NCBI RefSeq assembly: GCF_000214355.1
Contig: NC_015577.1
Location: forward strand, 2,250,453 to 2,314,452
DNA: 64,000 nucleotides
Reading direction: 5' to 3'
DNA from: Leadbettera azotonutricia ZAS-9
GTDB lineage: Bacteria; Spirochaetota; Spirochaetia; Treponematales; Breznakiellaceae
In this document: positions 7,791 to 48,094 of the stretch, piece after piece
Layout: each line of letters begins with the position of its first letter
How positions within the stretch are numbered: position 1 is the first letter of the stretch
The notes under the pieces: model-generated
The model's input: only the letters and a program-made list of their open reading frames with translations
What the model was told of the DNA's origin: nothing
The model's database searches: none
Translations under genes and position numbers: made by a program

Positions 7791-7985
7791 TTATTTTTTA
7801 GGCAAGCCGCTGTTTGCAGCAGGAACGCGGCCCGCGGACGCGGTACAGTCGGAACACCCGCAGCCGCAGCCTGCTTTACCCCGGCGCAGATTCCGTATCA
7901 GCCTGATGAGCACAAAAGCCAGGGCCGCAAAAACAATTGCCCCCACAATAATAGTCGATCCATTGGTGCTCAAAAATTCCTTCAT
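7791..7985 (-). CDS. FeoB-associated-type Cys-rich small membrane protein
   Basis: 64 aa starting at MKEFLSTNGS, chosen because GGGAGGAG lies 6 nt before this ATG (a longer reading adds six codons that overlap the SD). One transmembrane helix (about residues 8-30) is followed by a basic stretch and the cluster CGCGCSDC. This layout matches the short FeoB-associated Cys-rich membrane proteins, which usually sit beside the ferrous iron transporter gene feoB. There is no feoB here. It lies 33 bp after a sugar kinase gene on the same strand and is probably co-transcribed with it. A metal-binding role is plausible but unproven. Confidence 0.65.
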   Translation of the reverse strand: MKEFLSTNGSTIIVGAIVFAALAFVLIRLIRNLRRGKAGCGCGCSDCTASAGRVPAANSGLPKK

Positions 7986-8018
7986 AATAATCTCCTCCCT
8001 CATGACGCCCTTCGATTG

Positions 8019-9500
8019 TCACGCTTTTACCGCAAATTCGCATTCGGACTTGATGTGCCCATGGAGGGCGCGGTAGGCTTCGAATTTTTCTTTATAAATA
8101 CCCTGATATGTCCAGTCAGGTTCGATAGTCTCTTTTATCTGCGACATGGAACAGGCAGCTTCCTCTATGCCCCCATACACCCCTTCGGCCGCCGCGCAGA
8201 GGATAGCCCCTCCCAGGGCGCCGGCCTCCTTGACCTTGAGAACGCTGACCGGTATGCCCAACAGGTCGGCTTTAATCCTGAGCCAGGGACGGCTTTTGCT
8301 GCCGCCCCCAACTGCTATGAGGTGCTTTATAAAAATCTTCTCTTCTCCAAGGACAGCGATATTGAGCGCTTGATCCAGCACAAGACCTTCGAGGATTGCC
8401 TGGTACATATCGTACTTGCTTGTGCCGTAATCCATGCCGATGAACGCAAGCCGGGCCGCTGAATCCATGTAGGGCGTGCCGCTCCCCATAAGGTAGGGCT
8501 GCACCATAATCTTCGAGGGCTTGGGCTGGACCTTCCCGTCGAAGGCCGCAGGGGTTTCGCCATTGGAAGCAAAATTATCCACGAACCACTGCACCAAAAG
8601 GCCGGAAGTCTGGTTATAGGCAAGGGCGCAGAATTTCCCCTTTTCCCACAGCGGCTCGGAAGGGATGCCCTTGTTGGCCGTGAAGGCTTCGGGCAGCATA
8701 GCGCCTATGATGGGGGTAATGCACTCGGCGGTGCCCATGGAGCAGACCGCATAGCCGTCCCGGAGGCCCGAGCCAATGGCGTTCACAGGCTGGTCGTGGC
8801 CCCCGATAATGACATGGACATTTTCCGGGATATTCCATTCCCTGCAAAGGCTTTGCCGGAGCGTGCCAAGAATGGTGCCCATGGGCTTCGTATCCCCAAA
8901 GTGGCTGCGTTCCAGGCCGAAGCGTGAAATCAATTCATCGCTCCAGGCGCAGGTACGCACATCGAAGAACATAGTGCGGCAGGCCGCGGAATAATCCACC
9001 GCGGAATTTTCGCAGAATTGAAGGGCGATAAACTCTTCTATAAAAAGGATGCGGTCTATCTTTTCGTAAATATCAGGACGCTCGAATTTAAGGTAGAGCA
9101 CCTTGGAAAGGCTGTAGGAAGGCGACAAGGGAAGCCCGCAGATCCGGGCTATTTCTTCGGGGCTTGTTTTTTTCTCGGCTTCAAAATATTCCTTTTCGCC
9201 CCAGCGGTCCGTAAAGAGCATGGGATCGAAAATTGGCTTCCCCGATTTATCGACAGCCACAAAGGCTTCGCCGAAAGTGCTGATGCAGAGGGCTTTGATT
9301 TCCCTGCCAAATGCAGCAGCGGTCTCGGCGAAAACTTCCTTTGTCTTGCCCCACAATTCCCCTGCGGTGAGAAGCCGGGTCCCATCGGGGCTTACCTTGA
9401 TGGCGTAATTGCGATAGGCCCCTGAGATCTGGTTCCCTTTTTCGTCAAAGACAATGGCCTTAACACCGGTAGTGCCTACGTCCAAACCGCAGAAATACAT
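8019..9500 (-). CDS. FGGY-family carbohydrate kinase
   Basis: 493 aa, the normal length for FGGY kinases. The N-terminal phosphate-binding motif is LDVGTTGVKAIVFD; GGHDQPVNAIGSG holds the likely catalytic Asp; AVGGGSKSRPWLRIKADLLG is the C-terminal adenosine motif. It phosphorylates a ketose or polyol with ATP in the cytoplasm. It starts 1 bp after the aldolase stop, in an operon with an isomerase and aldolase, which implies aldose to ketose to ketose-phosphate to triose plus aldehyde. The sugar cannot be read from the sequence; xylulose/fuculose-type ketoses are the obvious candidates. Confidence 0.85.
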   Translation of the reverse strand: MYFCGLDVGTTGVKAIVFDEKGNQISGAYRNYAIKVSPDGTRLLTAGELWGKTKEVFAETAAAFGREIKALCISTFGEAFVAVDKSGKPIFDPMLFTDRWGEKEYFEAEKKTSPEEIARICGLPLSPSYSLSKVLYLKFERPDIYEKIDRILFIEEFIALQFCENSAVDYSAACRTMFFDVRTCAWSDELISRFGLERSHFGDTKPMGTILGTLRQSLCREWNIPENVHVIIGGHDQPVNAIGSGLRDGYAVCSMGTAECITPIIGAMLPEAFTANKGIPSEPLWEKGKFCALAYNQTSGLLVQWFVDNFASNGETPAAFDGKVQPKPSKIMVQPYLMGSGTPYMDSAARLAFIGMDYGTSKYDMYQAILEGLVLDQALNIAVLGEEKIFIKHLIAVGGGSKSRPWLRIKADLLGIPVSVLKVKEAGALGGAILCAAAEGVYGGIEEAACSMSQIKETIEPDWTYQGIYKEKFEAYRALHGHIKSECEFAVKA

Positions 9501-9501
9501 A

Positions 9502-10407
9502 TTACCCCTTCAGCGCAGGCCGGGTTTTATTTTCTCCAAGCATATCAACAATCACTTCCCGCACCCTTTTGTAAACTGCTTCCTGGGCTTTGCCGATATC
9601 ATTATTGCTGTTTTTTAGGCCGTTTTCATAGGCCTGCCTGATCTCTGTGCCCACATTGATTTTGGCAATCCCCGCCTTTATCCCCCGGCGTATATAATCA
9701 ACCTGGATGCCGCTGCCCCCGTGAAGCACCAGGGGGAGCTTCACTGCCTTATAAATGGCTGCGATATGATCCACGTCGAGCCTGGCCTCGGGCTTCTTCT
9801 GGCCTCTGGTAGCCTCCGCAACAGCGCCGTGTATGTTGCCCACTGCCACGGACATCCAGTCGCAACGGGATTCCTTTGCGAACTGTATTGCTTCGTTGAT
9901 ATCCGTGAAGCCCAGCTTGGTGGCAAATATCTCTTCGTAGGGCTTTATCGGCCCGCTCTCATGGCCCATGACAGCCCCCAGCTCGCCCTCGCAGGCAAGC
10001 CCCGAGGCATGCACCAAATCCGCAACACGGGCAGTGGCCTCGATATTGCCTTCAAGATCGAGGCGCGAGGCGTCCACCATCACCGACTGATACCCCGCGT
10101 CAATGGCGCGGCGTATGATCGGCAGGTAGTCCACCTGTTTCTGATCCTCATCGATGACCGGCACATGGTCCAGCCCCAGGAGGGTGAAGCCCGGCTTTTC
10201 GAACTTCCGGTATTCTTCGGCCACTGCTTCGAGGCTTTTGGAAGAAAACTTTTCCCATTCAACCCGGGCAACATGGATAATGGCGATGATGTTTTCATCT
10301 TTCACCGCTGCTGCCACAGGCTCGACCATGGGAAGGTAGGGGATGTTGAAAGCAGGAACCGCAGTCCCTATCTCCCGCGCCTTAAGTATCACGTCTTTTG
10401 CGTTCAT
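9502..10407 (-). CDS. Class II (zinc) fructose-bisphosphate/ketose-phosphate aldolase
   Basis: 301 aa. The N-terminus AVPAFNI, the Asp-His of LGLDH (catalytic Asp and first zinc His), NIHGAVAE and LHGGSGI (second and third zinc His) and INVGTEIRQA (phosphate binding) are all characteristic of the GatY/KbaY/FbaA family. It cleaves a ketose mono- or bisphosphate to DHAP and an aldehyde. LGLDHVP differs from the usual LDHG, so the substrate pocket is probably not that of a housekeeping FBP aldolase. It is tightly packed between an isomerase and a kinase gene, so it likely acts on the product of that kinase. Confidence 0.82.
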   Translation of the reverse strand: MNAKDVILKAREIGTAVPAFNIPYLPMVEPVAAAVKDENIIAIIHVARVEWEKFSSKSLEAVAEEYRKFEKPGFTLLGLDHVPVIDEDQKQVDYLPIIRRAIDAGYQSVMVDASRLDLEGNIEATARVADLVHASGLACEGELGAVMGHESGPIKPYEEIFATKLGFTDINEAIQFAKESRCDWMSVAVGNIHGAVAEATRGQKKPEARLDVDHIAAIYKAVKLPLVLHGGSGIQVDYIRRGIKAGIAKINVGTEIRQAYENGLKNSNNDIGKAQEAVYKRVREVIVDMLGENKTRPALKG

Positions 10408-10418
10408 TGTACGACCTG

Positions 10419-11813
10419 TCAGAACGAGTGGATTTCGTAGCCCAGGTATTTCTCCAGGGCTTCCCGCACTGCCCAGGCTGTTTTGCCCGCAGTGAGGCTC
10501 AAGTGATGACGATACCCTTCTTTTCCCACATAGTCAACGATTTCCCCCATGCGGGGATGTTCCATGACCACGCCGCAGCCGAAGAAGCCTTCTTCTATGG
10601 CATCGCCGGTGAGATAGCCCTCGCCCAGGAAAGCCCAGATTTTGCCGTCCTCTGTTTTGGCGCTGCCAAAGGTCACAGGCAGGTTCTGCCTGATCTGCCC
10701 ATGGTTGATACCCACCCCGGAACCGGCGCCGAGGCTCTTCCTGAACATCAGGTGCTCCTCGGTAATGCCCTTGCCCTCCATTAACGAAATAGGCACAGGC
10801 CCGCAGTGGAAAAGTATGCTCTTGTTGTCGTCCAAGCCAAAGTTATTGTTGATATCCAGCAGCATAGGGGCCGAGTCCCCGGCCAGGGATATGGCCTTCA
10901 TGATAATGGCGTTGGCAATATCCACTTCGCAGCCCGCGGCAATGCCCCGTTCGTTCAGCTCGCCGAGGAGCAGGCAGGGCGCCACGCCGAAACTCAGCTC
11001 CAGTTCGTCCCAGCACCTTATTGCAACAGCGTCAAGCTGGTATTCTTCTATATAATTGTCAATAACCACCCCAAGGCGGGAAATAGTGTCCAGCTTTGCA
11101 GCCTCGTAATTGAACTGGGTAGTTTCGAGGAGCTTCTTCTTTTTTGCCTCGATACGTCCTGAATCCGCTTCTTTCATGAGACGGAAAATCTGGGAAAGGT
11201 CAAAGCTTTCGATATTGATGCCGTGCCGCTGAAGCCCGATCTCGTCCACCCTCACGGTTTTGAAAGCCGTGGTCCTGGCGCCAAAGGAGCCCAGATTCAT
11301 GCGCCGCATGGTCTTTACAATGCGGCAAATGCCTGCGAATTTTTGCAGATGCTCCTGGAAAACCTCTTCCCCCGGATCAACCGTAAAAGGAGGGATTATG
11401 GTGTACTTGATACCGCACTGCCGCAGCACATTGCACATGGCAAATTTGCCGCACATGGAATCCCTGCGGTGGGCAAAATCCATCTTCCCCGGCATATCCC
11501 GGTAAGCCTGCACCAGTATGGGCACCCCAGCCTCGCTCAGGGCAGCCTGGGCCCCGTTTTCGTCGCTGAAGTTGGGCATACAGAGTATGACCCCCTGGAA
11601 CTGCCCCGCATGCTCCCTGAGGAACGCGGCGTACTTCCGCCCCTCCTCCCTGGTTTCCACAGCCCCAAAGCGGGTCAGCTTCTCGTCCATGGCGATATAG
11701 CCATACCCGGCCTTTTCCACAGCCTGGATAAGCTCCCTGCGCGCATCGGCAATGAGCTCACCGGGGAAAAAACCCCGGTTCCCGAAAAATAGAGCGAATG
11801 TAAGTTTGGTCAT
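10419..11813 (-). CDS. L-fucose/L-arabinose isomerase-like sugar isomerase
   Basis: 464 aa in the L-fucose-isomerase-related family (the two-domain FucI/AraA-like fold). The N-terminal half has FALFFGNRGFFP and GVILCMPNFSDENGAQAAL; the C-terminal half has the conserved RCWDE (a likely metal-binding Glu), LDINNNFG with Asp, and INHGQIRQN. It should interconvert an aldose and a ketose using Mn2+ in the cytoplasm. It follows the LacI gene by 14 bp and precedes the aldolase by 11 bp. It is shorter than true FucI (about 590 aa) and is probably a different subfamily, so fucose is not assured. Confidence 0.75.
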   Translation of the reverse strand: MTKLTFALFFGNRGFFPGELIADARRELIQAVEKAGYGYIAMDEKLTRFGAVETREEGRKYAAFLREHAGQFQGVILCMPNFSDENGAQAALSEAGVPILVQAYRDMPGKMDFAHRRDSMCGKFAMCNVLRQCGIKYTIIPPFTVDPGEEVFQEHLQKFAGICRIVKTMRRMNLGSFGARTTAFKTVRVDEIGLQRHGINIESFDLSQIFRLMKEADSGRIEAKKKKLLETTQFNYEAAKLDTISRLGVVIDNYIEEYQLDAVAIRCWDELELSFGVAPCLLLGELNERGIAAGCEVDIANAIIMKAISLAGDSAPMLLDINNNFGLDDNKSILFHCGPVPISLMEGKGITEEHLMFRKSLGAGSGVGINHGQIRQNLPVTFGSAKTEDGKIWAFLGEGYLTGDAIEEGFFGCGVVMEHPRMGEIVDYVGKEGYRHHLSLTAGKTAWAVREALEKYLGYEIHSF

Positions 11814-35652: not shown

Positions 35653-36555
35653 TCATTTATAGACAGATTTTTTCCAGCTGGAAGGCGGAATGCCAGTTTT
35701 TTGCTTGAACTGACGTGAAAAATAATACTGGTCATTAAAGCCCAGCTGGAATGCGGTTTCTTTGACGGTAAGATCGGTTTGTTCAAGCAAACGGCATGCC
35801 CTGTTGATTTTTATCTGAATATAATACTGGTAGGGCGTTATGGAGCTATATGCTTTAAAGACATCGTTTAAATGCGAAGCGCTTATATTGATTTTTTGGG
35901 CGATGCTTGGGATGTCTATTTCTTTGTAGATATTTGCTTCCATCAATTCTTTTGCTTTTTCTACGATTAGCTGCTGTTTTGAATATTCCGGATGCACTTT
36001 CCTGCGTTCGCCCGTAAGAAGATCGGCAAGAAGCAAAAATATTCTGGAACAGGCTTTTATTTGAAAGAGCGGCTGCTGTGAACACACCTCATCAAAAATC
36101 CTGGTAAAAATCGAGACTATATAATCGTGCAGGCCTATTTCAAAAAAAATTTGCTCCTGGGAAAGGATACCTTCAGTTACCAGGCCGTCAAAAAAACTGC
36201 CGGTAAACCCAACCCAATATTCATGCCAGCCGGTTTCGTACAAGGGTTTGTAATGATGCTTCATGCCGGGCAGGATGAGCAGCATGGAACCGGTGCTTAC
36301 CGTATAGGTTTTGTCCCCGGTATTGAAGATGCCGGCTCCGTCGCTGATATATACCAATTGAAATTCCGGCAGGATGCGCCCTTCAGCTACTTCACGGAAT
36401 GCTGCGGGATGCGCATTTTTATTGAGCGGATATACCGTCCTGGACGGGGTTTCAATCTCCCCGACAGTGGTACACAACATACCCAATTTTTCATCTTCTT
36501 CGCTGTAAGGTATGTAGCGTAAAAAAAAATTGTAATTTCCATTGACAGTCTTCAA
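35653..36555 (-). CDS. AraC-family transcriptional regulator
   Basis: 300 aa. An N-terminal cupin-like sensor (FQLVYISDGAGIFNTGDKTY, GSMLLILPGMKHHYKP) is followed by two helix-turn-helices (IPSIAQKINISASHLNDVFKAY and VKETAFQLGFNDQYYFSRQFKQKTG). The only upstream start is a TTG at 36555 without a clear SD, close to a TATACT box at about 36565-36570, so it may be nearly leaderless. It is divergent from an Lpl-type importer and a GH10 xylanase, and probably activates them in response to xylo-oligosaccharides. Confidence 0.86.
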   Translation of the reverse strand: MKTVNGNYNFFLRYIPYSEEDEKLGMLCTTVGEIETPSRTVYPLNKNAHPAAFREVAEGRILPEFQLVYISDGAGIFNTGDKTYTVSTGSMLLILPGMKHHYKPLYETGWHEYWVGFTGSFFDGLVTEGILSQEQIFFEIGLHDYIVSIFTRIFDEVCSQQPLFQIKACSRIFLLLADLLTGERRKVHPEYSKQQLIVEKAKELMEANIYKEIDIPSIAQKINISASHLNDVFKAYSSITPYQYYIQIKINRACRLLEQTDLTVKETAFQLGFNDQYYFSRQFKQKTGIPPSSWKKSVYK

Positions 36556-36709
36556 TATTTATGTAGTATAGGAGCGTTTATTATCTCTGTACATGGATAA
36601 TTCAATTTGGAGATGGATTAAACACGGATTTTTTAGATTTTACTATGAATTATCCCTTTATAAAAGAGTATTTTGTAAACAAAACCTTTCCTTTTTTAAC
36701 AAACAATGA

Positions 36710-36715
36710 TATAAT
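36710..36715 (+). promoter_or_regulatory. -10 element of the Lpl-type importer/xylanase operon
   Basis: A perfect TATAAT with no good -35 at 16-18 bp, which suits an activator-dependent promoter. Two A+T-rich 14-bp segments (36671-36684 and 36692-36705) share 10 bases at a 21-bp offset, a weaker version of the AraC site near 18640. This box places the operon start downstream of 36715 and supports the GTG at 36735. Confidence 0.4.
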
Positions 36716-36734
36716 TCCAGGACTGGGGGTTGAG

Positions 36735-37625
36735 GTGAAGAAGCAGAACGACTGGCAGCTTTGGGTACTTCTACTGCCCGCGCTTTTATATTTCTTCGTG
36801 TTCTGCTATCTGCCGATGTACGGCATACAGATCGCCTTCCGGGATTATAAAGCGGTCTTTGGGATTTTGGGCAGCAAATGGGTAGGGCTAAAGAATTTTT
36901 CCGATTTTTTCAGTACTTACTATTTTGCGCGCCTTTTGGGTAATACCTTCCTGCTCAATATTTTCGGTCTCCTGTGGGGTTTCCCCATACCCATTATTCT
37001 TGCGATTTCTTTAAATCAGATTGAACATCCGCTATATAAAAAATTGGTCCAGACTTCAATCTACATTCCTCATTTCATTTCCACTGTGGTTATGGTTGGC
37101 ATGCTATACCTCTTTTTATCCCCCTCAAACGGTATATTCAATAAATTCATTGGGATGGCCGGAGGTGCGCCAATTTATTTTATGGCTGAACCGGGCTGGT
37201 TCCGTACGCTATTCATAGGTTCAGATATCTGGCAACATGCCGGATGGAGCACGATCCTCTATATTGCAACCCTGACGGGCATCGATCCCGAACTATATGA
37301 GGCCGCCACGGTAGACGGCGCAACCAAAGGGCAAAAGATATGGCATATTGACATACCCCATCTTATGCCCATTGCGGTGATGATGCTTATATTAAGCTGC
37401 GGCAGCCTGCTGATATCCAACACCGACAAGGCGCTGCTGATGAAAACCGCTGCCAACAGCGCCAGGTCTGATATAATCGGCGTATATGTATATGAGATGG
37501 GCCTTGGAAAGGCACAGTTTTCGTACACGGCGGCTATAGGTTTGTTCACCAATGTGATTAATTTTATTACGATTATGATCGTCAATTCGGTGTCCAAAAA
37601 GCTCAACGAAACGAGTCTGTTCTAA
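36735..37625 (+). CDS. ABC oligosaccharide permease (LplB-type)
   Basis: 296 aa from GTG at 36735 (SD GGGGG; the frame is open further up, but a -10 box lies inside that part). VLLLPALLYFFVFCYLPMYGIQIAFRDYK is the near-universal start of LplB/YteP permeases, and YEAATVDGATKGQKIWHIDIPHL is the EAA loop. It imports complex oligosaccharides with the next two genes. Systems of this kind in Firmicutes import aldouronic-acid or pectin oligosaccharides, which fits the xylanase gene downstream. Confidence 0.86.
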   Translation: MKKQNDWQLWVLLLPALLYFFVFCYLPMYGIQIAFRDYKAVFGILGSKWVGLKNFSDFFSTYYFARLLGNTFLLNIFGLLWGFPIPIILAISLNQIEHPLYKKLVQTSIYIPHFISTVVMVGMLYLFLSPSNGIFNKFIGMAGGAPIYFMAEPGWFRTLFIGSDIWQHAGWSTILYIATLTGIDPELYEAATVDGATKGQKIWHIDIPHLMPIAVMMLILSCGSLLISNTDKALLMKTAANSARSDIIGVYVYEMGLGKAQFSYTAAIGLFTNVINFITIMIVNSVSKKLNETSLF

Positions 37626-37637
37626 GGGAGGGCTGAT

Positions 37638-38558
37638 ATGGCCGCAAGGGGCGTACAGGTCAATAAGGCCAATACTGATAAAGTTTTTGACCGTATAAAT
37701 CTCATCTTTTGGGTTATCGTTCTTGTTGCGATTTTATATCCGCTCTGGCTCATCATTGTGGCGAGTGTATCCGAGCCGGATGCGGTCATGATGGGGAAAG
37801 CCCTTTTATGGCCTGTAGGATTTTCATGGACCGGCTATCAGGCAGTGTTTCAGCACAAGCAACTAATAAGCTCCTATGCCAATTCTATCTTTTATACTGT
37901 ATCCGGTTCCGCGATAAGTGTGGCTGTCACCATGATGGCGGCCTATGCCCTCACCCGGAAGTTCAAGGGGAAGAAAGGGGTTAACCTTTATATCATTATT
38001 ACCATGTTCTTTTCAGGCGGGCTTATCCCCCAGTTTTTGATGAACCGTACCCTCGGCCTTTACAATACAGTGCTCATCATGATTATCATAAACGGCGTTT
38101 CAGTCTGGAACCTGATGGTAGCACGGACGTATATTTCTTCTGCCGTGCCAAATGAACTGTATGAGGCAGCTGCAATAGACGGGGCGGATCATTTCATATA
38201 TTTCTTCCGCATCGTGCTACCCCTTTCGGGTACTATTATCGCTGTGTTGGCCGTATACTATGGCGTTGCACGATGGAACGACTATTTCACTGCCCTGGTT
38301 TATATACGTGACCGGGCCAAGCTGCCTCTGCAAACCATACTGCGGGAGGTCATCGCCACCCTGACTACGAGCACATCGGATGCGGATTTTTTCAGCGCCT
38401 ATGCTAACGATTCCCATGCAATTTCTGAAGCTATACGCAGAGCCCAGGTGGCGAAATATTGCTGCATTGTGGTTTCTACAGTGCCGACTGTGGCGCTGTA
38501 TATGCTTATGCAGAAGTACTTTGTCAAGGGTGTATTAATTGGTTCGCTCAAGGGCTGA
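37638..38558 (+). CDS. ABC oligosaccharide permease (YtcP/LplC-type)
   Basis: 306 aa, six membrane helices. FDRINLIFWVIVLVAILYPLWLIIVASVSEP is the typical first helix; NELYEAAAIDGADHFIYFFRIVLPL is the EAA loop, and VPTVALYMLMQKYFVKGVLIGSLKG the conserved end. SD GGGAGGG lies 7 nt before ATG. It forms a heterodimer with the LplB-type permease, 12 bp upstream. No ATPase gene is next to it. Confidence 0.88.
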   Translation: MAARGVQVNKANTDKVFDRINLIFWVIVLVAILYPLWLIIVASVSEPDAVMMGKALLWPVGFSWTGYQAVFQHKQLISSYANSIFYTVSGSAISVAVTMMAAYALTRKFKGKKGVNLYIIITMFFSGGLIPQFLMNRTLGLYNTVLIMIIINGVSVWNLMVARTYISSAVPNELYEAAAIDGADHFIYFFRIVLPLSGTIIAVLAVYYGVARWNDYFTALVYIRDRAKLPLQTILREVIATLTTSTSDADFFSAYANDSHAISEAIRRAQVAKYCCIVVSTVPTVALYMLMQKYFVKGVLIGSLKG

Positions 38559-38583
38559 CCGTGATTTTTTTGAAGGAGAAAGA

Positions 38584-40155
38584 ATGAAAGTACAGTACAA
38601 ACAGGCGGCAGCGGCAGGAATCATGCTACTGCTTGCAGCCCTCGGCGGGTGCAAAAAGAACGAGGCGTCGGCTTCAGGATCTGGACAGATTAATCTTCGT
38701 GTTTTCCAGTACGAAGTGGAAAATCAGCAAATGGACTTCCCGAATCTCTGGTTCTTTCAGGAACTTGAAAAAAAGACGGGGGTTCATATTGAGTGGGAGC
38801 CGGTCAAAGATGGCGACTGGACCACGCGGCTTAATCTTATGTTCGCTTCGATGGATTTGCCGGATATCATACGCACCGGGGATGTGGATATTGAGGAATA
38901 TGGCGTTACCCAGGGCTTGCTGGTGGCTCTTAACGATTATCTTGAACCGAATATGCCTAACTATTACAGCCGGTTGTTTATGAACGAGGCCAATAAGGCA
39001 ATGCCCGCTTCCGATGGCAAGATGTACTGGATTGGGGGCCTTATCGCTCAAAATATAAACCATGACGGAAGCCATTACATAAACAAAGCATGGCTGGACA
39101 AGCTTGGCCTTGCGGTCCCAAAGACCATTGACGAGCTGACCGATGTCCTCAAGGCATTCCGCGACAGGGACCCGAACGGCAACGGATTAAAAGATGAAAT
39201 CCCTTTCTCTGCAGGTGATCTGATTCATCAGACCCAGGGCCTTTACACCCATTTCGCAAATTTCGGCGTCCCCCTGCAGCGTTATGTGTACGCTGTCATC
39301 CAGGAAAACAGCAAGCTTGTCTTCCCTGGCAACATGGATGGGTTCCGGCCAGCCCTCGAATGGCTTGCCATGTGTTACCGCGAGGGCCTTTTGGACATGG
39401 AGTCCATCACCCAGGATTCCAATGCCTGGGGTATCAAGATGAATGCTGGGCTGGTAGGGTACACAACTTATCTCAGGCTTATCAATACAGCCCTCAGCCC
39501 CGATATCGCGGCGCAGTACGAATCAATATTGCCCCCAGCAGGCAAGTACGGGGTATCAGTCCCGAGGCTGCTGGAGGTCCCGAATGTGGATGCCGTTTTG
39601 ACGACCGCCAATAAACATATTCCTGAATCCTTAAAATGGCTGGATGCCCAGTTTGAAACCGAAACGATGATGATTGCATACAACGGCCCCATTCAGCCGG
39701 GTGGGCCAATAGATCCGACAATGAAAATAAACAATCAGGGGAAATATGAAATTCTCTATGTGCCTGAGAACAATTTATTGTATAAATATGTACCGGTTTA
39801 TCACGCCATGTTCTTCGCCCCCGGGGATTATTATTTCAACATATTTGAAATGCCTCCCCACCGGGTAGAACGCTTCAATTCCAGCAAACAATATGCGGAT
39901 GCGGGTGTGCTTGAGCCAGGTTCATTCACCATACTCAACAACCTTATCAAACCCAGTGCTGAAGATTCCCTTGAAATTACCCGGCTTTATAATGAAATTG
40001 ATAAATTGATGCAGGAATCCATTGCAAATTTTATCAGAAGCGGTATAACTGATGCAGGCTGGCTGGAATTCTTGAATTCCGGTAAATCTATAGGTGTTGA
40101 CAGATATGTCGCGCTTCTTCAAAAAGCGTACGATGCCTATCTGACAGCGAAGTAA
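38584..40155 (+). CDS. ABC oligosaccharide-binding lipoprotein (LplA-type)
   Basis: 523 aa from MKVQYK (SD AAGGAG); lipobox AALGGC (Cys23). Motifs of the large LplA subfamily are WFFQELEKKTGVHIEWEPV, RLNLMFASMDLPDIIRTGD and DPNGNGLKDEIPFS, a Ca-binding-like loop. The length of about 520 aa is normal for binding proteins that take long oligosaccharides. It is the third gene of the importer operon, and the GH10 gene begins 6 bp later. Confidence 0.88.
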   Translation: MKVQYKQAAAAGIMLLLAALGGCKKNEASASGSGQINLRVFQYEVENQQMDFPNLWFFQELEKKTGVHIEWEPVKDGDWTTRLNLMFASMDLPDIIRTGDVDIEEYGVTQGLLVALNDYLEPNMPNYYSRLFMNEANKAMPASDGKMYWIGGLIAQNINHDGSHYINKAWLDKLGLAVPKTIDELTDVLKAFRDRDPNGNGLKDEIPFSAGDLIHQTQGLYTHFANFGVPLQRYVYAVIQENSKLVFPGNMDGFRPALEWLAMCYREGLLDMESITQDSNAWGIKMNAGLVGYTTYLRLINTALSPDIAAQYESILPPAGKYGVSVPRLLEVPNVDAVLTTANKHIPESLKWLDAQFETETMMIAYNGPIQPGGPIDPTMKINNQGKYEILYVPENNLLYKYVPVYHAMFFAPGDYYFNIFEMPPHRVERFNSSKQYADAGVLEPGSFTILNNLIKPSAEDSLEITRLYNEIDKLMQESIANFIRSGITDAGWLEFLNSGKSIGVDRYVALLQKAYDAYLTAK

Positions 40156-40161
40156 AGCCAT

Positions 40162-41652
40162 ATGAAACAAATTCATGTAAGGCTGGATGATGCAGGTGGT
40201 ATTCCAATGGCAAGGCCGATTTTGGAGTCTGTATATGCAAGCGATCTCGAATTCGAACCCGATGAGCGCCGCCAGCGCATTTTGCCTGATGGAACGGTAG
40301 AGCTTACGGTGACCCATGAACCTTATATGATACATGCCAAAATTTATTTGCCCTTATACGGCAATATTTGGATCATGGCTGATAATGAAGGCTTAGGGTA
40401 TACAGGTGATTTTGTCGATTTTGTTTCAGAAGCTTGCCATACCTATATCCGAGAGGCGGAAAAACACGGAGAAAATATTACCCTTTCTCCCGAGGCACAC
40501 AGCCACCTGGCTGCGGCAAAGGAGTTTACCCATCTTGCAGACCGGGGGAAGAGCACTGCCGAAAACCGGCTCTATGCCCTTTCCCATGCGGTTTACGCTG
40601 CAGAAGCAGCCCTGTTTGAAGCGTCGTGTCAAAGGGTATATGCGAACCCCAGGGACAATCTGCTCCTGGGCTGCAACTTTTTTAAATATACATCTTCTGA
40701 TGCACGATACGCAAAATTTTTCGCCGATGCTTTTGATTTTGCCACCCTTCCCTTCTATCCGGGGCGGACAGTACCGGAAAAAGGCAAATATACCTACGAA
40801 TATATTGATCTAGCCCTGGAATACCTGCAAAGCAAAAACATCAAACCCAAAGGGCATCCGATATGGTTCGGTCACGAGAGTGTGAACCCAAAATGGCTTT
40901 TCGGCCAACCTTTTGAAACCTTGCAGAAAAACGCCAGGGAAATCGCGTTGCATCATGTTAAGGCTTACAAGGGCAGGATCAAGGTCTGGGATGCCATGAA
41001 CGAAGCCCATGACTGGGCTAATTGCTTTACACTTACTCAACCTCAGTTAGTCGAATTGACCCGTACCTGCTGTGACGCACTCCACGAAGTAGACAGTTCT
41101 GCCATTGCGGTAGTGAACGTGTGCCTGCCCTTTGCAGAATATGTTGCGGGACGTTATGTGTGTTACGGTTCCCTTCCGGAAAAGCTCCACTCACCTCTGA
41201 CCTATTTCCGCGCGATTCTTGATGCAGGGGTGCAATTCGATGTAACCGGCATTCAGCTTTACTTCCCGGCCCGCGATATGGTTGCAGTAGATCGCATGCT
41301 TTCAGTTTTTGCTTCTCTTGGAAAGCCGGTGCATATTACTGAAATGGGGGTTAACGGCGACATACGCGGACATGCCTCCCAGAGCGGTTCATCCTGGACA
41401 CAGCTTTCCATGTCCGAAGGAGTTTGGCATGGGGGATGGAATGAGCATACCCAGGCCGACTGGCTGGAGCAATTCTATACGATTGCGGCTGCCCGCCCTG
41501 AAATACAAGCCCTGACCTGGTGGGATTTTATCGAGCCATCGTTTTCAGGAAACGGCGCTTTTCTTTACGAAGATGAAAACCCCAGAGAAATGTACTTCAG
41601 GTTGTTGGCGCTTAAGGACAGAATCATTAAAAAGCGATATGGCACTGTTTAA
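40162..41652 (+). CDS. Cytoplasmic GH10 endo-xylanase with N-terminal extension
   Basis: 496 aa with no signal peptide. The GH10 barrel occupies about residues 160-495: LLLGCNFFKY, GHPIWFGHE, KVWDAMNEAHD (acid/base Glu281), HITEMGV (nucleophile Glu394) and ALTWWDFIEPSF, ending at about 490. The first roughly 155 residues are not GH10 and resemble no domain I can name; they look beta-strand then helix. Cytoplasmic GH10 enzymes next to Lpl-type importers cut imported (methylglucurono-)xylo-oligosaccharides. It is the last gene of that operon. Confidence 0.86.
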   Translation: MKQIHVRLDDAGGIPMARPILESVYASDLEFEPDERRQRILPDGTVELTVTHEPYMIHAKIYLPLYGNIWIMADNEGLGYTGDFVDFVSEACHTYIREAEKHGENITLSPEAHSHLAAAKEFTHLADRGKSTAENRLYALSHAVYAAEAALFEASCQRVYANPRDNLLLGCNFFKYTSSDARYAKFFADAFDFATLPFYPGRTVPEKGKYTYEYIDLALEYLQSKNIKPKGHPIWFGHESVNPKWLFGQPFETLQKNAREIALHHVKAYKGRIKVWDAMNEAHDWANCFTLTQPQLVELTRTCCDALHEVDSSAIAVVNVCLPFAEYVAGRYVCYGSLPEKLHSPLTYFRAILDAGVQFDVTGIQLYFPARDMVAVDRMLSVFASLGKPVHITEMGVNGDIRGHASQSGSSWTQLSMSEGVWHGGWNEHTQADWLEQFYTIAAARPEIQALTWWDFIEPSFSGNGAFLYEDENPREMYFRLLALKDRIIKKRYGTV

Positions 41653-41737: not shown

Positions 41738-42813
41738 ATGGGTAATTATCCAAAAACAATGAAGGCCCTGGTGGCGTATGGCAAAACCGACTACCGCTAT
41801 GAGAGTGCATACCCGACGCCGGAGTGCGGGGATGATGATATCATCATCAAGGTTGAGGGTTGCGGGATTTGCGCGGGGGATGTGAAATGCCAGCATGGGG
41901 CGGCTATGTTCTGGGGGATGAAATTCAGCCCTCGTGGGTTAAGCCGCCTTTCATCCCGGGGCACGAATTTTTGGGCCATGTGGTCGAAATGGGCAGGAAT
42001 GTCAAAGGCTATGAAATCGGGGACAGGCTTACGGCCGATCAGATTGTGCCCTGCGGGGAGTGTCGGTTCTGCAAAAGCGGAAGGTACTGGATGTGTCAGC
42101 CCCATGGCATGCACGGGTTCCATGCGGAATTTAACGGCGGTATGGCTGAATATGTGCGGTACACGAAAAACGCCATTGTCCACAAGGTGCCCAAGGATTT
42201 GCCCCTTGAGAAGGCCCTCCTGATTGAGCCCTATGGCTGTTCAAAGCATGCGGTGGACCGGGCCAATATCCAGTGTACCGATGTGGTCGTTATCTCCGGC
42301 GCGGGCACACTAGGGCTTGGCATGGTGACTTATGCGGCCCTCAAAAACGCGAAAGCCCTCGTTTCCCTTGATATGGCGGATGACCGCCTTGAAAAGGCAA
42401 AGGCCTTCGGAGCGACCCATGCATTCAACCCTTCCAAGGTCGATGTGAACGCGGAGATCATGAAAATGACAGACGGCTACGGCTGCGATATCTATATCGA
42501 AGCTACGGGCCATACTTCGAGCGTTATACAGGGGCTGGGCTTAATCAGAAAACTGGGCACCTTCGTGGAATTCAGCGTTTTCAGCGGCCCCACGAATGTG
42601 GACTGGTCAATAATCGGCGACAGGAAAGAGCTGGACATTCTCGGTTCCCATTTAAGCCCCTATTGCTTCCCCTATGTCATCGATGGCATCAGCAAGGGGG
42701 CTCTGAAGACCGACGGACTCATAAGGACTACCTTCAAACTTGAAGAATGGGAAAAGGCCTATGACTATGCATCGGGCAAATACGGCGATTTAAAGGTCGC
42801 GTTCATTCCATAA
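41738..42813 (+). pseudogene. Zinc-dependent polyol dehydrogenase (erythritol/L-threitol type), frameshifted
   Basis: Two overlapping frames together make one 358-aa medium-chain zinc dehydrogenase. The first ends its homology at QHGAAMFWG, and the second resumes with DEIQPSWVKPPFIPGHEFLG. Reading six G instead of five at 41913-41917 restores one frame. Motifs present are GCGICAGD (catalytic Zn Cys), GHE, the structural Zn Cys set PCGECRFCKSGRYWMC, and GAGTLGLGMV (NAD). HGAAxFWGDE and YIEATGHTS are strong marks of erythritol/L-threitol dehydrogenases, which make erythrulose. It is first in the operon with dhaK, dhaL and an isomerase. Either a real inactivating deletion or a homopolymer sequencing error. 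Confidence 0.78.
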
Positions 42814-42837
42814 GCGAGCAATTAAAGGGAGAAAAAC

Positions 42838-43833
42838 ATGCAGCGTATTTTAAACGATCCGGACAATGTTGTTGACGAAATGCTCAAAGGCTTTGTCAAA
42901 GTGCATAGCGATATTGTTGCCCCCACGGATAACCCCAGGGTTATAAAACGGGCTGTGATCCCGGCAGGAAAGGTCGGGGTGGCAACCGGCGGCGGCAGCG
43001 GCCATAAACCTGCCTTTATCGGCTACATCGGGGAAAATCTCTGCGATGCGGCTGCTGTGGGCGAGATATGCACTTCCCCGACAGCAGCGGCCTTTCTCGA
43101 TGCCTTTAAGGCTGCGGATCAGGGGAAGGGGGTTGCCTGTTTGTACGGCAACTATTCCGGCGACAATATGAATGTCAAAATGGCCATCAAGATGGCAAAG
43201 AAGGAAGGGCTTGAAGTCAAGACCGTGGTTGCCAATGACGATGTGGCTTCGGCCCCCAAAGACCAGGCAGAAAAACGCCGGGGCGTGGCCGGGGAGGTCC
43301 TGATGTGGAAAGCCGGGGGCGCCAAAGCTGCCGCCGGCGGGAGCCTTGACGAGGTGATTGCCGCCGCACAGAAGGCCATCGACCATACCCGGAGCGTCGG
43401 CATAGGCCTTACACCCTGTACCCTGCCGGCAGTAGGGCATCCCAATTTCGAGATCAAGCCCGGCACAATGGAAGTCGGCATAGGCCACCATGGCGAGCCG
43501 GGCATAGAGGTATGTCCTTTGGAATCCGCCGCCAAAATGGCAGAGCGTATGGTGAATGTGGTGCTGCCCGATTATCCCTTTGTTTCCGGAGATGAGGTGG
43601 TTGTACTGGTATCGGGCCTTGGGGCTACCCCGGTCATGGAACTCTATGTTCTCTATGACGAGATAGAAAAGCTCATCAGCGGGAAGGGGATCAAAATTCA
43701 CCGTGCCTATGTGGGCAATTACTTTACTTCCCTGGAAATGATGGGCGCAACCCTGACTGTCATGAAGCTGGACGATGAACTCAAAAAGCTGGTAGACATG
43801 CCCTGTTACAGCATGGGCATCAAGCAAAACTAG
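42838..43833 (+). CDS. dhaK: Dihydroxyacetone-kinase-type substrate subunit (DhaK-like), probably for erythrulose
   Basis: 331 aa. GGGSGHKP gives His56, YSGDNMN gives Asp109 and GIGHHGEPGIE gives His218, the same numbering as the substrate-binding residues known from E. coli DhaK; His218 binds the ketone covalently. The two-domain DhaK fold is complete. It holds dihydroxyacetone or another short ketose for phosphorylation by DhaL. In this operon, after a tetritol-type dehydrogenase, erythrulose is the more likely substrate. SD GGGAG. Confidence 0.88.
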   Translation: MQRILNDPDNVVDEMLKGFVKVHSDIVAPTDNPRVIKRAVIPAGKVGVATGGGSGHKPAFIGYIGENLCDAAAVGEICTSPTAAAFLDAFKAADQGKGVACLYGNYSGDNMNVKMAIKMAKKEGLEVKTVVANDDVASAPKDQAEKRRGVAGEVLMWKAGGAKAAAGGSLDEVIAAAQKAIDHTRSVGIGLTPCTLPAVGHPNFEIKPGTMEVGIGHHGEPGIEVCPLESAAKMAERMVNVVLPDYPFVSGDEVVVLVSGLGATPVMELYVLYDEIEKLISGKGIKIHRAYVGNYFTSLEMMGATLTVMKLDDELKKLVDMPCYSMGIKQN

Positions 43834-43842
43834 GGGGATGTT

Positions 43843-44487
43843 TTGAGGGGCATAAAAAACTCGGATGGAAAACCAATACTCTTGAAGATGGTTGCTGCAA
43901 TACAGAAGAACAAGGATTATCTTGGAGAAGTGGACGGCCTCATTGGGGACGGCGATCACGGCATGAACATGAACAAAGGATTCTCCATGTTCGCGGCGCA
44001 AATCGCGGATAAAGATATCGGTTTTGCCGATGGCCTTGACGAATTGGGGACCCTGCTGTTTTCCAAGATTGGCGGTTCCATGGGCCCCATCTACGGCGCT
44101 GTATTCACCGGCATGGCCGAAGCCGGGGAGGATCTTGAGGACATCGACGCCGTCGGCTTTGCAGCGATGATAGACGCAGGGTTGAATGGGCTGCGGGATA
44201 TTGTCGAGGCCCAGGTGGGGGATAAAACCCTGATAGATACCCTGGCGCCTGCAAACGAAGCCCTGCAGCAGGCGGTCAAAGAAGGGAAAGATCTTGCAGA
44301 GGCGTTGAATGCGATGAAAGCCGCCGCAGAAAAAGGCAGGGATTCCACCAGGGATTTAGCTGCCAAGTTTGGGCGTTCCAGCCGTTTGGGCGAGAGATCC
44401 CGGGGCGTTTTGGATGCAGGGGCGGTCTCATGCTGCATCATTTTAGGTTCAATGGCTGATGGCATTCTGGAACAGGCAGGAGCATAA
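43843..44487 (+). CDS. dhaL: DhaL-type nucleotide-binding kinase subunit
   Basis: 214 aa starting at TTG (SD GGGGG 5 nt upstream); no ATG precedes the conserved core. GLIGDGDHGMNMNKG carries the Mg-binding Asp residues (31, 36, 38); GGSMGPIYGAVF and RSSRLGERSRGVLDAGAVS are the other DhaL blocks. It phosphorylates the ketose held by DhaK, just upstream. There is no DhaM or other PTS gene here, so the phosphate donor (ATP or a phosphotransferase encoded elsewhere) cannot be told from this window. Confidence 0.87.
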   Translation: MRGIKNSDGKPILLKMVAAIQKNKDYLGEVDGLIGDGDHGMNMNKGFSMFAAQIADKDIGFADGLDELGTLLFSKIGGSMGPIYGAVFTGMAEAGEDLEDIDAVGFAAMIDAGLNGLRDIVEAQVGDKTLIDTLAPANEALQQAVKEGKDLAEALNAMKAAAEKGRDSTRDLAAKFGRSSRLGERSRGVLDAGAVSCCIILGSMADGILEQAGA

Positions 44488-44489
44488 TA

Positions 44490-44948
44490 ATGAAGACAAT
44501 AGCAATAGGCTGCGATAATGCGGCGGTGCCCATGAAGGCAATGCTGGTTAAATTTCTTGAATCCAAAGGGATACAGGTTGAAAACATGGGCTGCGACAGT
44601 GCCGATGATCCTGCCAATTACCCCAGTGTAGCCAAACGGGTCTGCGAAAGCATTATTGCCAGCGGGTACGAAAAGCGGGGCATACTGGTGTGCGGCACCG
44701 GCATTGGCATGTGCATGACTGCCAACAAATTCAAAGGCATCAGGGCGGCGGTTTGCCATGACAATTTTTCAGCAGAGCGATCCATACTCAGCAACAACGC
44801 GAATGTGCTTTGCATGGGCGAACGGGTGATAGGCCATGAGCTGGCGAAAAAAATAACCGGCGAATGGATAAGCCTGGAATTCAAGGATGGCCCCTCGACC
44901 CCAAAGGTGCAGGAGATAATCAATATCGAAGCAGCAAATATGAAATAG
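44490..44948 (+). CDS. RpiB-family sugar-phosphate isomerase, D-erythrulose-4-phosphate type
   Basis: 152 aa with the RpiB fold; the catalytic Cys68 lies in LVCGTGIGM. Two residues of ordinary ribose-5-phosphate isomerase B differ: the SDHAG motif is CDNAA, and the His of REHND is replaced within SAERSILSNNAN. The SAERxxLSNNA string is what I recall from the tetritol-pathway isomerases (EryI/DerI), which convert D-erythrulose 4-phosphate to D-erythrose 4-phosphate. The ATG is 2 bp after dhaL, and a terminator follows, so the operon ends here. Confidence 0.75.
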   Translation: MKTIAIGCDNAAVPMKAMLVKFLESKGIQVENMGCDSADDPANYPSVAKRVCESIIASGYEKRGILVCGTGIGMCMTANKFKGIRAAVCHDNFSAERSILSNNANVLCMGERVIGHELAKKITGEWISLEFKDGPSTPKVQEIINIEAANMK

Positions 44949-44960
44949 CCTCCTTTTTTT

Positions 44961-44987
44961 GGCAAAAGATAAAAATTTGCCTTTTTT
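44961..44987 (+). terminator. Terminator after the isomerase gene
   Basis: GGCAAA, a 9-nt loop, TTTGCC and six T. The stem is only 6 bp with three G-C pairs, so termination may be partial, but its place 13 bp after the stop and just before a new promoter fits. Confidence 0.5.
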
Positions 44988-44989
44988 CC

Positions 44990-45018
44990 TTGTTTTCTTT
45001 CTCCAAATTCTTTATAGT
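44990..45018 (+). promoter_or_regulatory. Promoter of the polyol/sugar ABC transporter operon
   Basis: -35 TTGTTT, 17-bp spacer, -10 TATAGT, 35 bp upstream of the binding-protein ATG (SD GGAGGAG). The importer can thus be transcribed apart from the catabolic genes. Confidence 0.5.
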
Positions 45019-45053
45019 ATCACTATAACTTATCTCTAAATGGAGGAGAAAAA

Positions 45054-46304
45054 ATGAAGAAGACAATTTTAAGCATAAGCGCTATCGCGCTTATGGCAGC
45101 ATTGGCATTGCCCTTGTTCGCCGCAGGCGGCAAGGACGCCGGAGCTTCCGGCAAGACAGTGCTCACCATGGGTTCATGGCGGACCGACGATGTGTCCCAA
45201 ATGAACAAACTTTTGGCTGAATATCAAAAGATAAAGCCCAATGTGGAAATCCAGTTCCGTCCCACCAACCCCCCGGATTACAATGCCACCCTGCGTTTGC
45301 AGCTTGACGGCGGCACTGGGCCGGATCTGATGTATGCCCGTTCCTATGCCCCTGGGCAGGAACTCTTTAAGGCCGGCTATTTCGCGGACTGTACGGACAT
45401 TCCCGGGGTAACCGCGAATTTTAGCGCTTCCAACCGGGCGCCCTGGCAGACACCCGACGGGAAAATGTTCGCTGTCCCTTTTGCTGCGGTATCCCATGCG
45501 GTGTACTACAATAAGACCATTTTCCAGAAGGAAGGACTCAAGATTCCCCAGACCTGGGAAGAGTTCCTCTCCCTCAACGCAACCCTGTTATCCAAGGGCT
45601 ATACACCCTTGGCAAACGGCGTGGCGGACGAATGGGACATCCTGGAATGCTTCTACCTGGGCCTGGTCCCCAACTATATTGGCGGCGCTTCCGAGCGGAT
45701 CCAGTATGAATCAGGGGCAAAGAAGCTGAACGACGCCAACTTTGTCGCCTCCTTCCAGGCTTTGGCTGATGTAGCCAAGTACCTGCCCAAGGGCTTTGAG
45801 TCGGTTACCTATAACGATTCACAGGTCCTTTTCAATACCCAACAGGCGATTATGTTCATGGACGGTTCCTGGACAGCCGGGGTCTATGCGGGCGCAAGCT
45901 TTGATTGGGGCCTCTTCGCCCTCCCCGCCCCCCAGGGCAAAAAAACTGCCATCACCTTCCATCCTGACATGGCAATTACCTATAATAAGGCAACCAAGCA
46001 TCCCCAGGAATGCAAGGATTTCCTGGCATGGCTCGCCTCCAAAGAAGGGGCCACCACTGCCTCGGAGAACCTTCCCGTGGGCTACTTCCCCATGATCAGC
46101 TTCGCCATCCAATTGTCGGACCCCCATGCCAACGAATTCCTGGCCCTGAATAACGGCAAGGAAACTGATGCCCGCTTTGTGTGGCCCAAATTCCTGGATC
46201 TCTACGCCCCCATGAATCAAGCGGTCATTCAGGTACTCAAGGGGGAAATTACTCCCCGCCAGGCAGCGGACAAAATGGAAACTACCGCCGCCGCCCTTCG
46301 CTAA
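45054..46304 (+). CDS. ABC transporter sugar/polyol-binding protein
   Basis: 416 aa, family 1 solute-binding protein. A signal peptide ends PLFA, then AGGKDAG; no lipobox Cys, as in the binding protein at 15467. Motifs: TVLTMGSWRTDDVSQMNKLLAEYQKIKPNVEIQF, DGGTGPDLMYARSY, and FMDGSWTAGVYAG. It is the first gene of a three-gene importer directly downstream of the tetritol-type catabolic genes, so its ligand is probably erythritol, threitol or a related polyol. That link is inferred from position only. Confidence 0.87.
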   Translation: MKKTILSISAIALMAALALPLFAAGGKDAGASGKTVLTMGSWRTDDVSQMNKLLAEYQKIKPNVEIQFRPTNPPDYNATLRLQLDGGTGPDLMYARSYAPGQELFKAGYFADCTDIPGVTANFSASNRAPWQTPDGKMFAVPFAAVSHAVYYNKTIFQKEGLKIPQTWEEFLSLNATLLSKGYTPLANGVADEWDILECFYLGLVPNYIGGASERIQYESGAKKLNDANFVASFQALADVAKYLPKGFESVTYNDSQVLFNTQQAIMFMDGSWTAGVYAGASFDWGLFALPAPQGKKTAITFHPDMAITYNKATKHPQECKDFLAWLASKEGATTASENLPVGYFPMISFAIQLSDPHANEFLALNNGKETDARFVWPKFLDLYAPMNQAVIQVLKGEITPRQAADKMETTAAALR

Positions 46305-46314
46305 AGGAGCAGAT

Positions 46315-47253
46315 ATGGCTTTAGAACACCGGATCGGATTAAACAGGAAGGGATCAAAAATCCCAACTGGGGCAACATGGATTCCCTATCTTGTTCCGGC
46401 CCTGGTGTTCTATATTCTGTTCATGGCCTGGCCTTTGTTGGATTCCCTGCGGCTCAGCCTCTATACAGGCTCCGCAGGGAACGGCCGCAGTTTCGTTGGT
46501 TTTGAAAATTTCAAGCGCCTTTTTACAGTGGAGCAATTTTCCGAGCGATACTGGGGGGCTTTTGGCCATACCTTTTATTTCTTTTTTATTCACCTCTTGG
46601 TGCAGAACTGCCTGGGGATACTCTTTGCGACCCTGCTCACAAATAAAACCATGCAAGGCCGGGTATTTTACCAGACCGTGATTTTCATTCCGGTTACTAT
46701 GGCCGTGCTCGTCACCGGCTATCTCTGGAAGCTCCTGCTCAATCCCGTATGGAGCGGCCCGTTCATGAAAAGCCTTGGCCTGGACTTCCTGGTCCGCCCC
46801 TGGCTGGGCGACCGGGCCACTGCCCTGACCAGCATATCCCTGGTGTCTTGCTGGCAATGGATGGGCATCCCTACCATGATGTTCGTGGCAGCTCTGCGGA
46901 ATATCAGCAACGATCTGCTGGAAGCGGCCAATATTGAAGGCGCCAATCCAAGGCAGGTTTTCTGGCGCATCAAGCTGCCCCTGATCAAACCGGTAGTCGG
47001 GATGATCGCCATACTCACCTTCGTGAATAATTTTAATGCCTTTGACGTGGTCTTCGCCATGGAAACTGCAAATGGCGCGCCTAATTATTCCACAGACCTC
47101 ATAGGTACCCTCTTCTACAGGGTGGGCATTGCGGGCCAGCATCCTGTGGGCATTCCCGATTCGGGCCTTGGGGCTGCTATCGCAACCGTCACCTTTTTCG
47201 TGCTCTGCCTTGGGGTAATACCCACCCTGCGGGCAACCCAGGGGAGGGAGTAA
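46315..47253 (+). CDS. ABC sugar/polyol permease (MalF/UgpA-type)
   Basis: 312 aa. WIPYLVPALVFYILFMAWPLLDSLRLSLY is the usual first helix; the EAA loop is LLEAANIEGANPRQVFWRIKLPL. SD AAGGAG lies before ATG, 10 bp after the binding-protein stop. Six helices are expected. It pairs with the next permease; the ATPase must come from elsewhere. Confidence 0.87.
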   Translation: MALEHRIGLNRKGSKIPTGATWIPYLVPALVFYILFMAWPLLDSLRLSLYTGSAGNGRSFVGFENFKRLFTVEQFSERYWGAFGHTFYFFFIHLLVQNCLGILFATLLTNKTMQGRVFYQTVIFIPVTMAVLVTGYLWKLLLNPVWSGPFMKSLGLDFLVRPWLGDRATALTSISLVSCWQWMGIPTMMFVAALRNISNDLLEAANIEGANPRQVFWRIKLPLIKPVVGMIAILTFVNNFNAFDVVFAMETANGAPNYSTDLIGTLFYRVGIAGQHPVGIPDSGLGAAIATVTFFVLCLGVIPTLRATQGRE

Positions 47254-47254
47254 G

Positions 47255-48094
47255 ATGGCTCAAGGCTCAATCAAACGGCAAAACCGCAACATTGTTTCCC
47301 ATATAATTCTGATCATCTATTCGTTGATAGTGATCTTCCCCCTTTGGGTGATGATAATCAATTCTTTTAAAGATCGGCTCTCTATTTACCAGAACCCCTT
47401 CATGCTCCCCAAAAAATGGAACATATCCAATTATGGCGATGTTTTGAGGGATGGGGATTTTCTGGTTTATTTCCGCAATAGTTTTGTAGTAGTAATACTG
47501 TCACTGGCCATTCTTTTGATTGTGGGCGCCCTGGCAAGCTATGCCCTGGCGAACTGGCGCGGCAAGTGGTCCCGGATCATTTACTTTTTCTGCATTGCCG
47601 GCATGATGCTGCCCATCAAGATCGCATCCATCAGGCTCCTTGAACTGGTCCGTATCCTGGGCCTTTTGAACACCATCTGGTCCCTCGTCCCCATATATGT
47701 CGCCATGGGAATCCCGATTGCCATTTTCATCCTCACCGAATTCATACGCCAGGTTCCCTGGGAACTAACCGAAGCAGGCATCATCGACGGCGCAAGCCGC
47801 TTCCAGGTTTTCTCCCGGATTATCTCTCCCCTGCTCCGCCCTGCCCTGGCAACAGTGGCAATCTACAACCTGGTCCCCTTTTGGAACGACCTCTGGTTCC
47901 CCCTGATCTTCATCAGCGACGATCAGGCAAAAACAGTCCTGCTGGGGGTTACCCGCCTCTTTGGCCAATACCAGACCGACTGGTCAAAGGTGTTGGCAGT
48001 CCTCACCCTTTCCGCCATCCCGGTAATTGCCCTCTATTTGGCGATGAGCAAACAGTTCATCCAGGGGCTTACTGCAGGCGCGGTCAAGGGATAG
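47255..48094 (+). CDS. ABC sugar/polyol permease (MalG-type)
   Basis: 279 aa. The first helix VSHIILIIYSLIVIFPLWVMIINSFK, the EAA loop ELTEAGIIDGASRFQVFSRIISPL and the conserved C-terminus QFIQGLTAGAVKG identify it as MalG-type. It starts 1 bp after the preceding stop and is coupled to it. It is the last gene of the importer operon; no clear terminator was seen before the convergent tRNA gene. Confidence 0.87.
   Translation: MAQGSIKRQNRNIVSHIILIIYSLIVIFPLWVMIINSFKDRLSIYQNPFMLPKKWNISNYGDVLRDGDFLVYFRNSFVVVILSLAILLIVGALASYALANWRGKWSRIIYFFCIAGMMLPIKIASIRLLELVRILGLLNTIWSLVPIYVAMGIPIAIFILTEFIRQVPWELTEAGIIDGASRFQVFSRIISPLLRPALATVAIYNLVPFWNDLWFPLIFISDDQAKTVLLGVTRLFGQYQTDWSKVLAVLTLSAIPVIALYLAMSKQFIQGLTAGAVKG

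Follow-up and report, generated by a model that had tools for sequence, protein, structure and literature searches.

The window analysed here is a stretch of 64,000 nucleotides (C1:2250453-2314452) in the complete 3,855,671-base genome of the spirochete Leadbettera azotonutricia ZAS-9. At positions 41738-48094 it carries genes that an initial annotation, made from the sequence of the window, had described as a complete pathway for four-carbon polyols (tetritols) with its own importer and an unusual kinase. Seven genes, encoding four enzymes, a binding protein and two permeases, lie at the coordinates and in the order described there, as follows.

41738..42813, + strand: Zn-dependent medium-chain dehydrogenase/reductase (polyol dehydrogenase, EltD-like group) with a one-base frameshift inside (ADH_N + ADH_zinc_N)
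41913..41917, + strand: GGGGG run at the frameshift, where six G would hold the frame (read from the sequence; homologs are continuous at the site)
42838..43833, + strand: DhaK subunit of a ketotetrose/dihydroxyacetone (DHA)-type kinase (Dak1, E 2e-110; clade of 32, support 1.0)
43843..44487, + strand: DhaL, the nucleotide-binding subunit, GDGDHG motif intact (Dak2, E 4e-48; TIGR02365, 162.7 over 138.3; alignment)
44490..44948, + strand: RpiB-type isomerase carrying Ser/Ser/Lys (short-chain signature) at the positions of His99/His134/Arg137 in E. coli numbering (LacAB_rpiB, E 8e-51)
45054..46304, + strand: ABC sugar-binding protein, adjacent but probably outside the tetritol module (SBP_bac_1/8; orthologs unlinked to the module elsewhere)
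46315..47253, + strand: ABC permease of the same transporter (BPD_transp_1; conserved with the binding protein)
47255..48094, + strand: ABC permease of the same transporter (BPD_transp_1; conserved with the binding protein)

The gaps between the four enzyme genes are 24, 9 and 2 bp, and the binding-protein gene begins after a further 105 bp. A scan of the locus for promoters and terminators gave a signal no better than that of shuffled sequences.

The SAERxxLSNNA string reported for the isomerase is real (FSAERSILSNNA). The window RpiB has the catalytic Cys66, the ring-opening His99 is replaced by Ser, and the His and Arg of the phosphate pocket of ribose-5-phosphate isomerases are replaced by Ser and Lys. 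In the alignment of module-type RpiB sequences (71 rows representing about 63 distinct genes, as some were fetched twice), Ser occupies the E. coli His99 position in 71/71 rows and the His134 position in 71/71, and Lys occupies the Arg137 position in 69/71; the 19 generic RpiBs retain His, His and Arg, and both groups retain Cys66 and Asp9. The best PDB match of the window protein, Coccidioides RpiB, shows the same residue changes; its authors, who noted that Ser stands in for the ring-opening His, suspected that the substrates are shorter (PMC3212906). In E. coli RpiB, the H99N substitution lowered the kcat on ribose 5-phosphate 26-fold (PMC4783025). A rhizobial RpiB with the same Ser motif (YSAERAVKSNNA) passes the NCBIfam model for D-erythrulose-4-phosphate isomerase, NF051858 (254.4 over 240), and its gene adjoins the apionate-pathway gene oiaX and a triosephosphate isomerase (TIM) gene. 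We propose from these alignments that the Ser/Ser/Lys residues may define DerI.

A class-wide RpiB survey, in which about 3.4 kb was seen round each RpiB, linked the same signature to gene context. Among the 29 scorable loci of the 30 drawn, DhaK, DhaL or the module's dehydrogenase was encoded within about 1.5 kb of the RpiB gene at 4/4 Ser-type loci (L179, L181, L187 and L198) and at 0/25 of the others; Fisher's test with a smaller comparison set (4/0 vs 0/19) gave a p value of 1e-4. Six loci (L191, L194, L196, L197, L201 and L206) encode RpiB-like proteins that keep the ring-opening His and have Asp replacing the catalytic Cys66. A third RpiB-like protein of the L. azotonutricia genome (L008:5130-5741, C1 about 300,192) has Gly at the His99 position and is encoded directly after a CUT1-type ABC transporter. 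The idea that RpiB is the cell's sole ribose-phosphate isomerase was ruled out, as RpiA was found in the genome; RpiB therefore need not serve ribose 5-phosphate and is free to specialise.

The window DhaK, whose best fit is PRK14479, falls within the clade of 32 in a tree of 97 DhaK sequences, and this clade includes neither the DhaK of the E. coli phosphotransferase system (PTS) nor generic spirochaete DhaKs. In the phylum survey of 393 genomes, members of the clade occur in 12 other genomes with 59-84% identity, after which identity falls to 51%; two of the 12 hold fragments (78-88% identity). One DhaK match (G103:C74:68361-69338) contains 3 TAG and 6 TAA codons inside, which points either to decay of the copy or to an odd reading of this stretch. 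The alignments show that the substrate His of DhaK (GHHGEPG) and the metal motif of DhaL (GDGDHG) are retained. DhaM (TIGR02364) is absent from the whole genome, with E. coli and Lactococcus as positive controls, so the remark in the initial annotation that the kinase lacks DhaM is correct genome-wide, and we therefore infer ATP as the phosphate donor.

The split kinase without DhaM is nevertheless the common form in this module and not, as had been thought, an unusual one. In the stretches fetched for the 80 best-scoring of at least 583 dehydrogenase relatives, which are not a random sample and include no actinobacteria, DhaK was present in 66, DhaL in 66, RpiB in 54 and TIM in 4, with tkt in 24, glpX in 23 and tal in 12. 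There is evidence that the module, with its split kinases, is common in Bacilli, Clostridia, Proteobacteria and spirochetes alike, and the same gene plan is plasmid-borne in E. coli, Salmonella and Pseudalkalibacillus. One such E. coli plasmid (L057, NZ_CP063469.1) carries a tetritol-type module with tkt and tal, and a dehydrogenase of this type was found in only 1/5426 complete E. coli genomes. In Ruminococcaceae bacterium OttesenSCG-928-L11 (L065:9001-14378), the alcohol dehydrogenase (ADH) is 82% identical to the second L. azotonutricia copy described below, and DhaK and RpiB are 84% and 83% identical to those of the window; this similarity across phyla, judged from sequence, likely reflects horizontal transfer.

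The dehydrogenase is split over two frames, 41738-42223 (stop at 42223) and 41860-42813, which join at the GGGGG run; the homologous reading F-W-G-D-E requires six G. In an eight-sequence alignment, seven complete homologs, one of them the second L. azotonutricia copy, are unbroken across the seam, and the 301 residues past it are otherwise intact. The frameshift may originate from a sequencing error, a recent mutation or slippage. The FWGDE string cited as a group signature is thus present as a joined reading, but it spans two frames, which had gone unstated; the YIEATGHTS string is real. Identity to the intact homologs in the alignment is 58-49%, and the group is sharply bounded, with members at 49-58% and the next sequence at 34%. 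A Providencia protein annotated as erythritol/L-threitol dehydrogenase belongs to this group and is 54% identical. The description of the pathway as complete is wrong for the window copy as sequenced because its dehydrogenase is frameshifted, although a second operon in the same genome could complement it.

The genome contains a second Dak1 gene and a second, close RpiB gene, both in an operon within the locus L007 (C1:2515000-2534000). Its genes are as follows, with positions counted within L007.

7818-8894: intact Zn dehydrogenase, about 60% identical to the window copy
8909-9676: short-chain dehydrogenase/reductase (SDR), NCBIfam 'GolD/DthD family dehydrogenase' (346.5 over 286)
9686-10681: DhaK, 84% identical to the window copy
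10696-11334: DhaL, 66% identical to the window copy
11309-11806: RpiB, 62% identical to the window copy

The GolD/DthD-family enzyme is found in the second operon only, with none in the window operon, and six SDRs from sister operons likewise pass the model (329-410 bits). DthD is reportedly a D-threitol dehydrogenase, as described by Huang in 2015. A run of three similar FAD-dependent oxidoreductase-like genes (L007:3059-7392) separates the second operon from an ABC transporter; one of the three was searched and gave no NCBIfam match. Downstream (L007:13455-16941) are a nickel-pincer isomerase group 22 gene (494.6 over 400), a PdxA-type gene whose product may be a relative of D-threonate 4-phosphate dehydrogenase, and a gene for a helix-turn-helix regulator resembling IclR on visual inspection; together these perhaps make up a pathway for four-carbon acids next to the tetritol operon.

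We interpret 41738-44948 as one of two genome copies of a widespread tetritol module and the ABC genes as a separate importer, with a probability of about 0.68. The tetritol pathway is supported by the isomerase signature, the DthD-family enzyme of the second operon, the DhaK clade and the tkt, tal and glpX genes in sister operons. In the proposed pathway, the Zn-dehydrogenase would act on a four-carbon polyol, erythritol most likely, and oxidise it to D-erythrulose; DhaK and DhaL would use ATP to convert D-erythrulose to D-erythrulose 4-phosphate; and the short-chain RpiB-type isomerase would convert this to D-erythrose 4-phosphate (E4P), which enters the pentose phosphate pathway. D-threitol would be the substrate of the DthD-type SDR encoded in the second operon. 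With the window dehydrogenase frameshifted, D-erythrulose would be supplied by the second operon, whose dehydrogenases (Zn enzyme and DthD-type SDR) are intact, or from outside. According to two papers (PMC10733421, PMC12780249), a LerI-type TIM is required only where L-threitol is used by way of L-erythrulose 1-phosphate, whereas the DerI step yields E4P. A second, LerI-type TIM was not found, with a single TIM match in the genome; therefore, a complete route should be the one via D-erythrulose.

Several points weigh against this interpretation. The frameshift itself is one. The window RpiB scores 143.3 bits, under the cut-off of 240 of the DerI model NF051858, whose name indicates that it was built for the rhizobial form, and it lies above the general RpiB cut-offs (TIGR01120, 151.2 over 138.65). 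Because of the score under the cut-off, we describe it as working like DerI and do not file it as a DerI equivalog. The likeness to the characterised EltD, LerK and DerK is one of chemistry and gene set, and DHA kinases are often promiscuous. The importer and the DhaK clade also co-occur at the genome level above chance (4 genomes shared, p 2e-4), for which kinship is the simpler reason because these genomes come from a single order and linkage of the genes is lacking.

If real, the frameshift allows another explanation, in which the window copy is a salvage unit for the ketotetrose erythrulose, with a dehydrogenase that is truly dead and a kinase and isomerase that were kept. The frameshift is the sole damage seen and both remaining enzymes are intact, and in rhizobial and marine relatives DhaK-DhaL occurs with no such Zn dehydrogenase in the vicinity. 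However, the intact and conserved residues after the shift are what would be expected if the mutation were very recent or a base had been miscalled in the G-run, and we consider the salvage explanation unlikely, at about one chance in four.

The tetritol module was also said to have its own importer, which is not supported: the ABC genes belong to an independently conserved treponemal system that is unlinked to the module in relatives. The binding protein has orthologs (73-79% identity) in 10 other spirochaete genomes; the DhaK clade is missing from 7/10 of these and lies on a different contig in 3/10 (G259, G391 and G304), which are all three of the relatives having both. The nearest relative of the operon is in G304 (DhaL 79%, RpiB 82%), where a peptidase gene follows RpiB. 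Following the importer ortholog, nagA is found in three genomes, accompanied by nagB in one of them; nagA was over the cut-off in the two genomes tested, and the third has the same protein cluster. Another genome has the ortholog beside GH13/GH77 genes, and mixed or regulatory neighbours occur elsewhere. As the orthologs are unlinked to the module and have other neighbours elsewhere, the adjacency in the window is local, and it is misleading as a functional clue. The ABC genes adjoining the module include no ATPase gene, and the sequence of the binding protein gave only weak, mixed matches for its ligand. The importer probably carries a substrate other than tetritols, perhaps amino sugars as a guess from the gene context, and would stand beside the operon by chance in this lineage.

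It is slightly less likely than the salvage explanation that the whole of 41738-48094 is one operon for tetritol uptake and use, in which the ABC system would be this species' importer of tetritols. The genes are on the same strand with just 105 bp from RpiB to the binding-protein gene, and CUT1-type permeases are near some module operons of other bacteria; against this, the binding protein has its close orthologs in module-free genomes, the importer orthologs have nagA/nagB as neighbours, and the binding proteins beside other modules are only weakly similar to that of the window. Directly upstream of the dehydrogenase (window 35653-41652) are a divergently oriented gene for an AraC-type regulator and genes for two permeases, a large binding protein and a GH10 protein; this stretch ends 86 bp before the dehydrogenase, and there may be read-through.

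Least probable is a glycerol/DHA pathway, in which the dehydrogenase would convert glycerol to DHA, DhaKL would form dihydroxyacetone phosphate and RpiB would be a regular ribose-5-phosphate isomerase that provides the link to the pentose phosphate pathway: a Listeria glycerol dehydrogenase/DHA kinase operon was proposed to work so, according to a title cited in PMC11575702, the GolD/DthD model spans both kinds of SDR and the window RpiB passes the general cut-offs, but the lost ring-opening His, the altered phosphate pocket and the tie of Ser-type RpiBs to DhaK/ADH are left unexplained, RpiA is present, and DhaK is outside the PTS branch in a genome without DhaM.

The proposed two-copy tetritol module is of a pathway type already known from Mycobacterium, Brucella and yeast. 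It resembles the erythritol/D-threitol/L-threitol pathway of Mycolicibacterium smegmatis (EltD, DthD, LerK, DerK, LerI and DerI; Huang 2015, as described in PMC10733421 and PMC12780249) in the sequence of dehydrogenase, DhaK-type kinase and RpiB-type isomerase to E4P and in the DthD-family SDR, here in the second operon. In gene content it differs in the split DhaK/DhaL kinase, in that no LerI-type TIM was found and in a CUT1-type transporter that is not conserved with the module. The Brucella/rhizobial erythritol pathway (EryA, EryB, EryC, EryH and EryI) likewise ends with an RpiB-family isomerase (EryI/DerI) giving D-erythrose 4-phosphate; in Brucella, however, EryA phosphorylates first, oxidation comes later and EryH is of the TIM type, whereas here oxidation would precede phosphorylation by a DhaK-type kinase. 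The EYD1/EYK1/EYI cluster of Yarrowia lipolytica (PMC5992420) also groups a dehydrogenase, a DhaK-type erythrulose kinase and an RpiB-type isomerase, but it is eukaryotic and includes a TIM-type isomerase. The ADH-MFS-DhaK-DhaL-RpiB(-tal-tkt-glpX) operons on plasmids and chromosomes of Bacilli, Salmonella, E. coli and Klebsiella have the same enzymes, the split kinase and a Ser-type RpiB, and differ in their MFS or CUT2 transporters and associated tkt/tal/glpX; no published function was found for these operons. The two-subunit architecture and catalytic motifs are shared with the PTS DhaKLM of E. coli, whose DhaK is about 40% identical and outside the clade and which, unlike the present system, has DhaM.

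More tentatively, and with less than even confidence, the proteins now annotated as ribose-5-phosphate isomerase B that have the Ser/Ser/Lys site may constitute a distinct class of isomerases for four-carbon sugar phosphates, one that is very widespread, the module may have moved horizontally among insect-gut bacteria, and tetritol use may be a general and overlooked trait in some anaerobic gut spirochetes and clostridia. A simple residue test may separate D-erythrulose-4-phosphate isomerases from true ribose-5-phosphate isomerases, which would correct many annotations. If confirmed, the pathway would represent an added carbon source for this spirochete.

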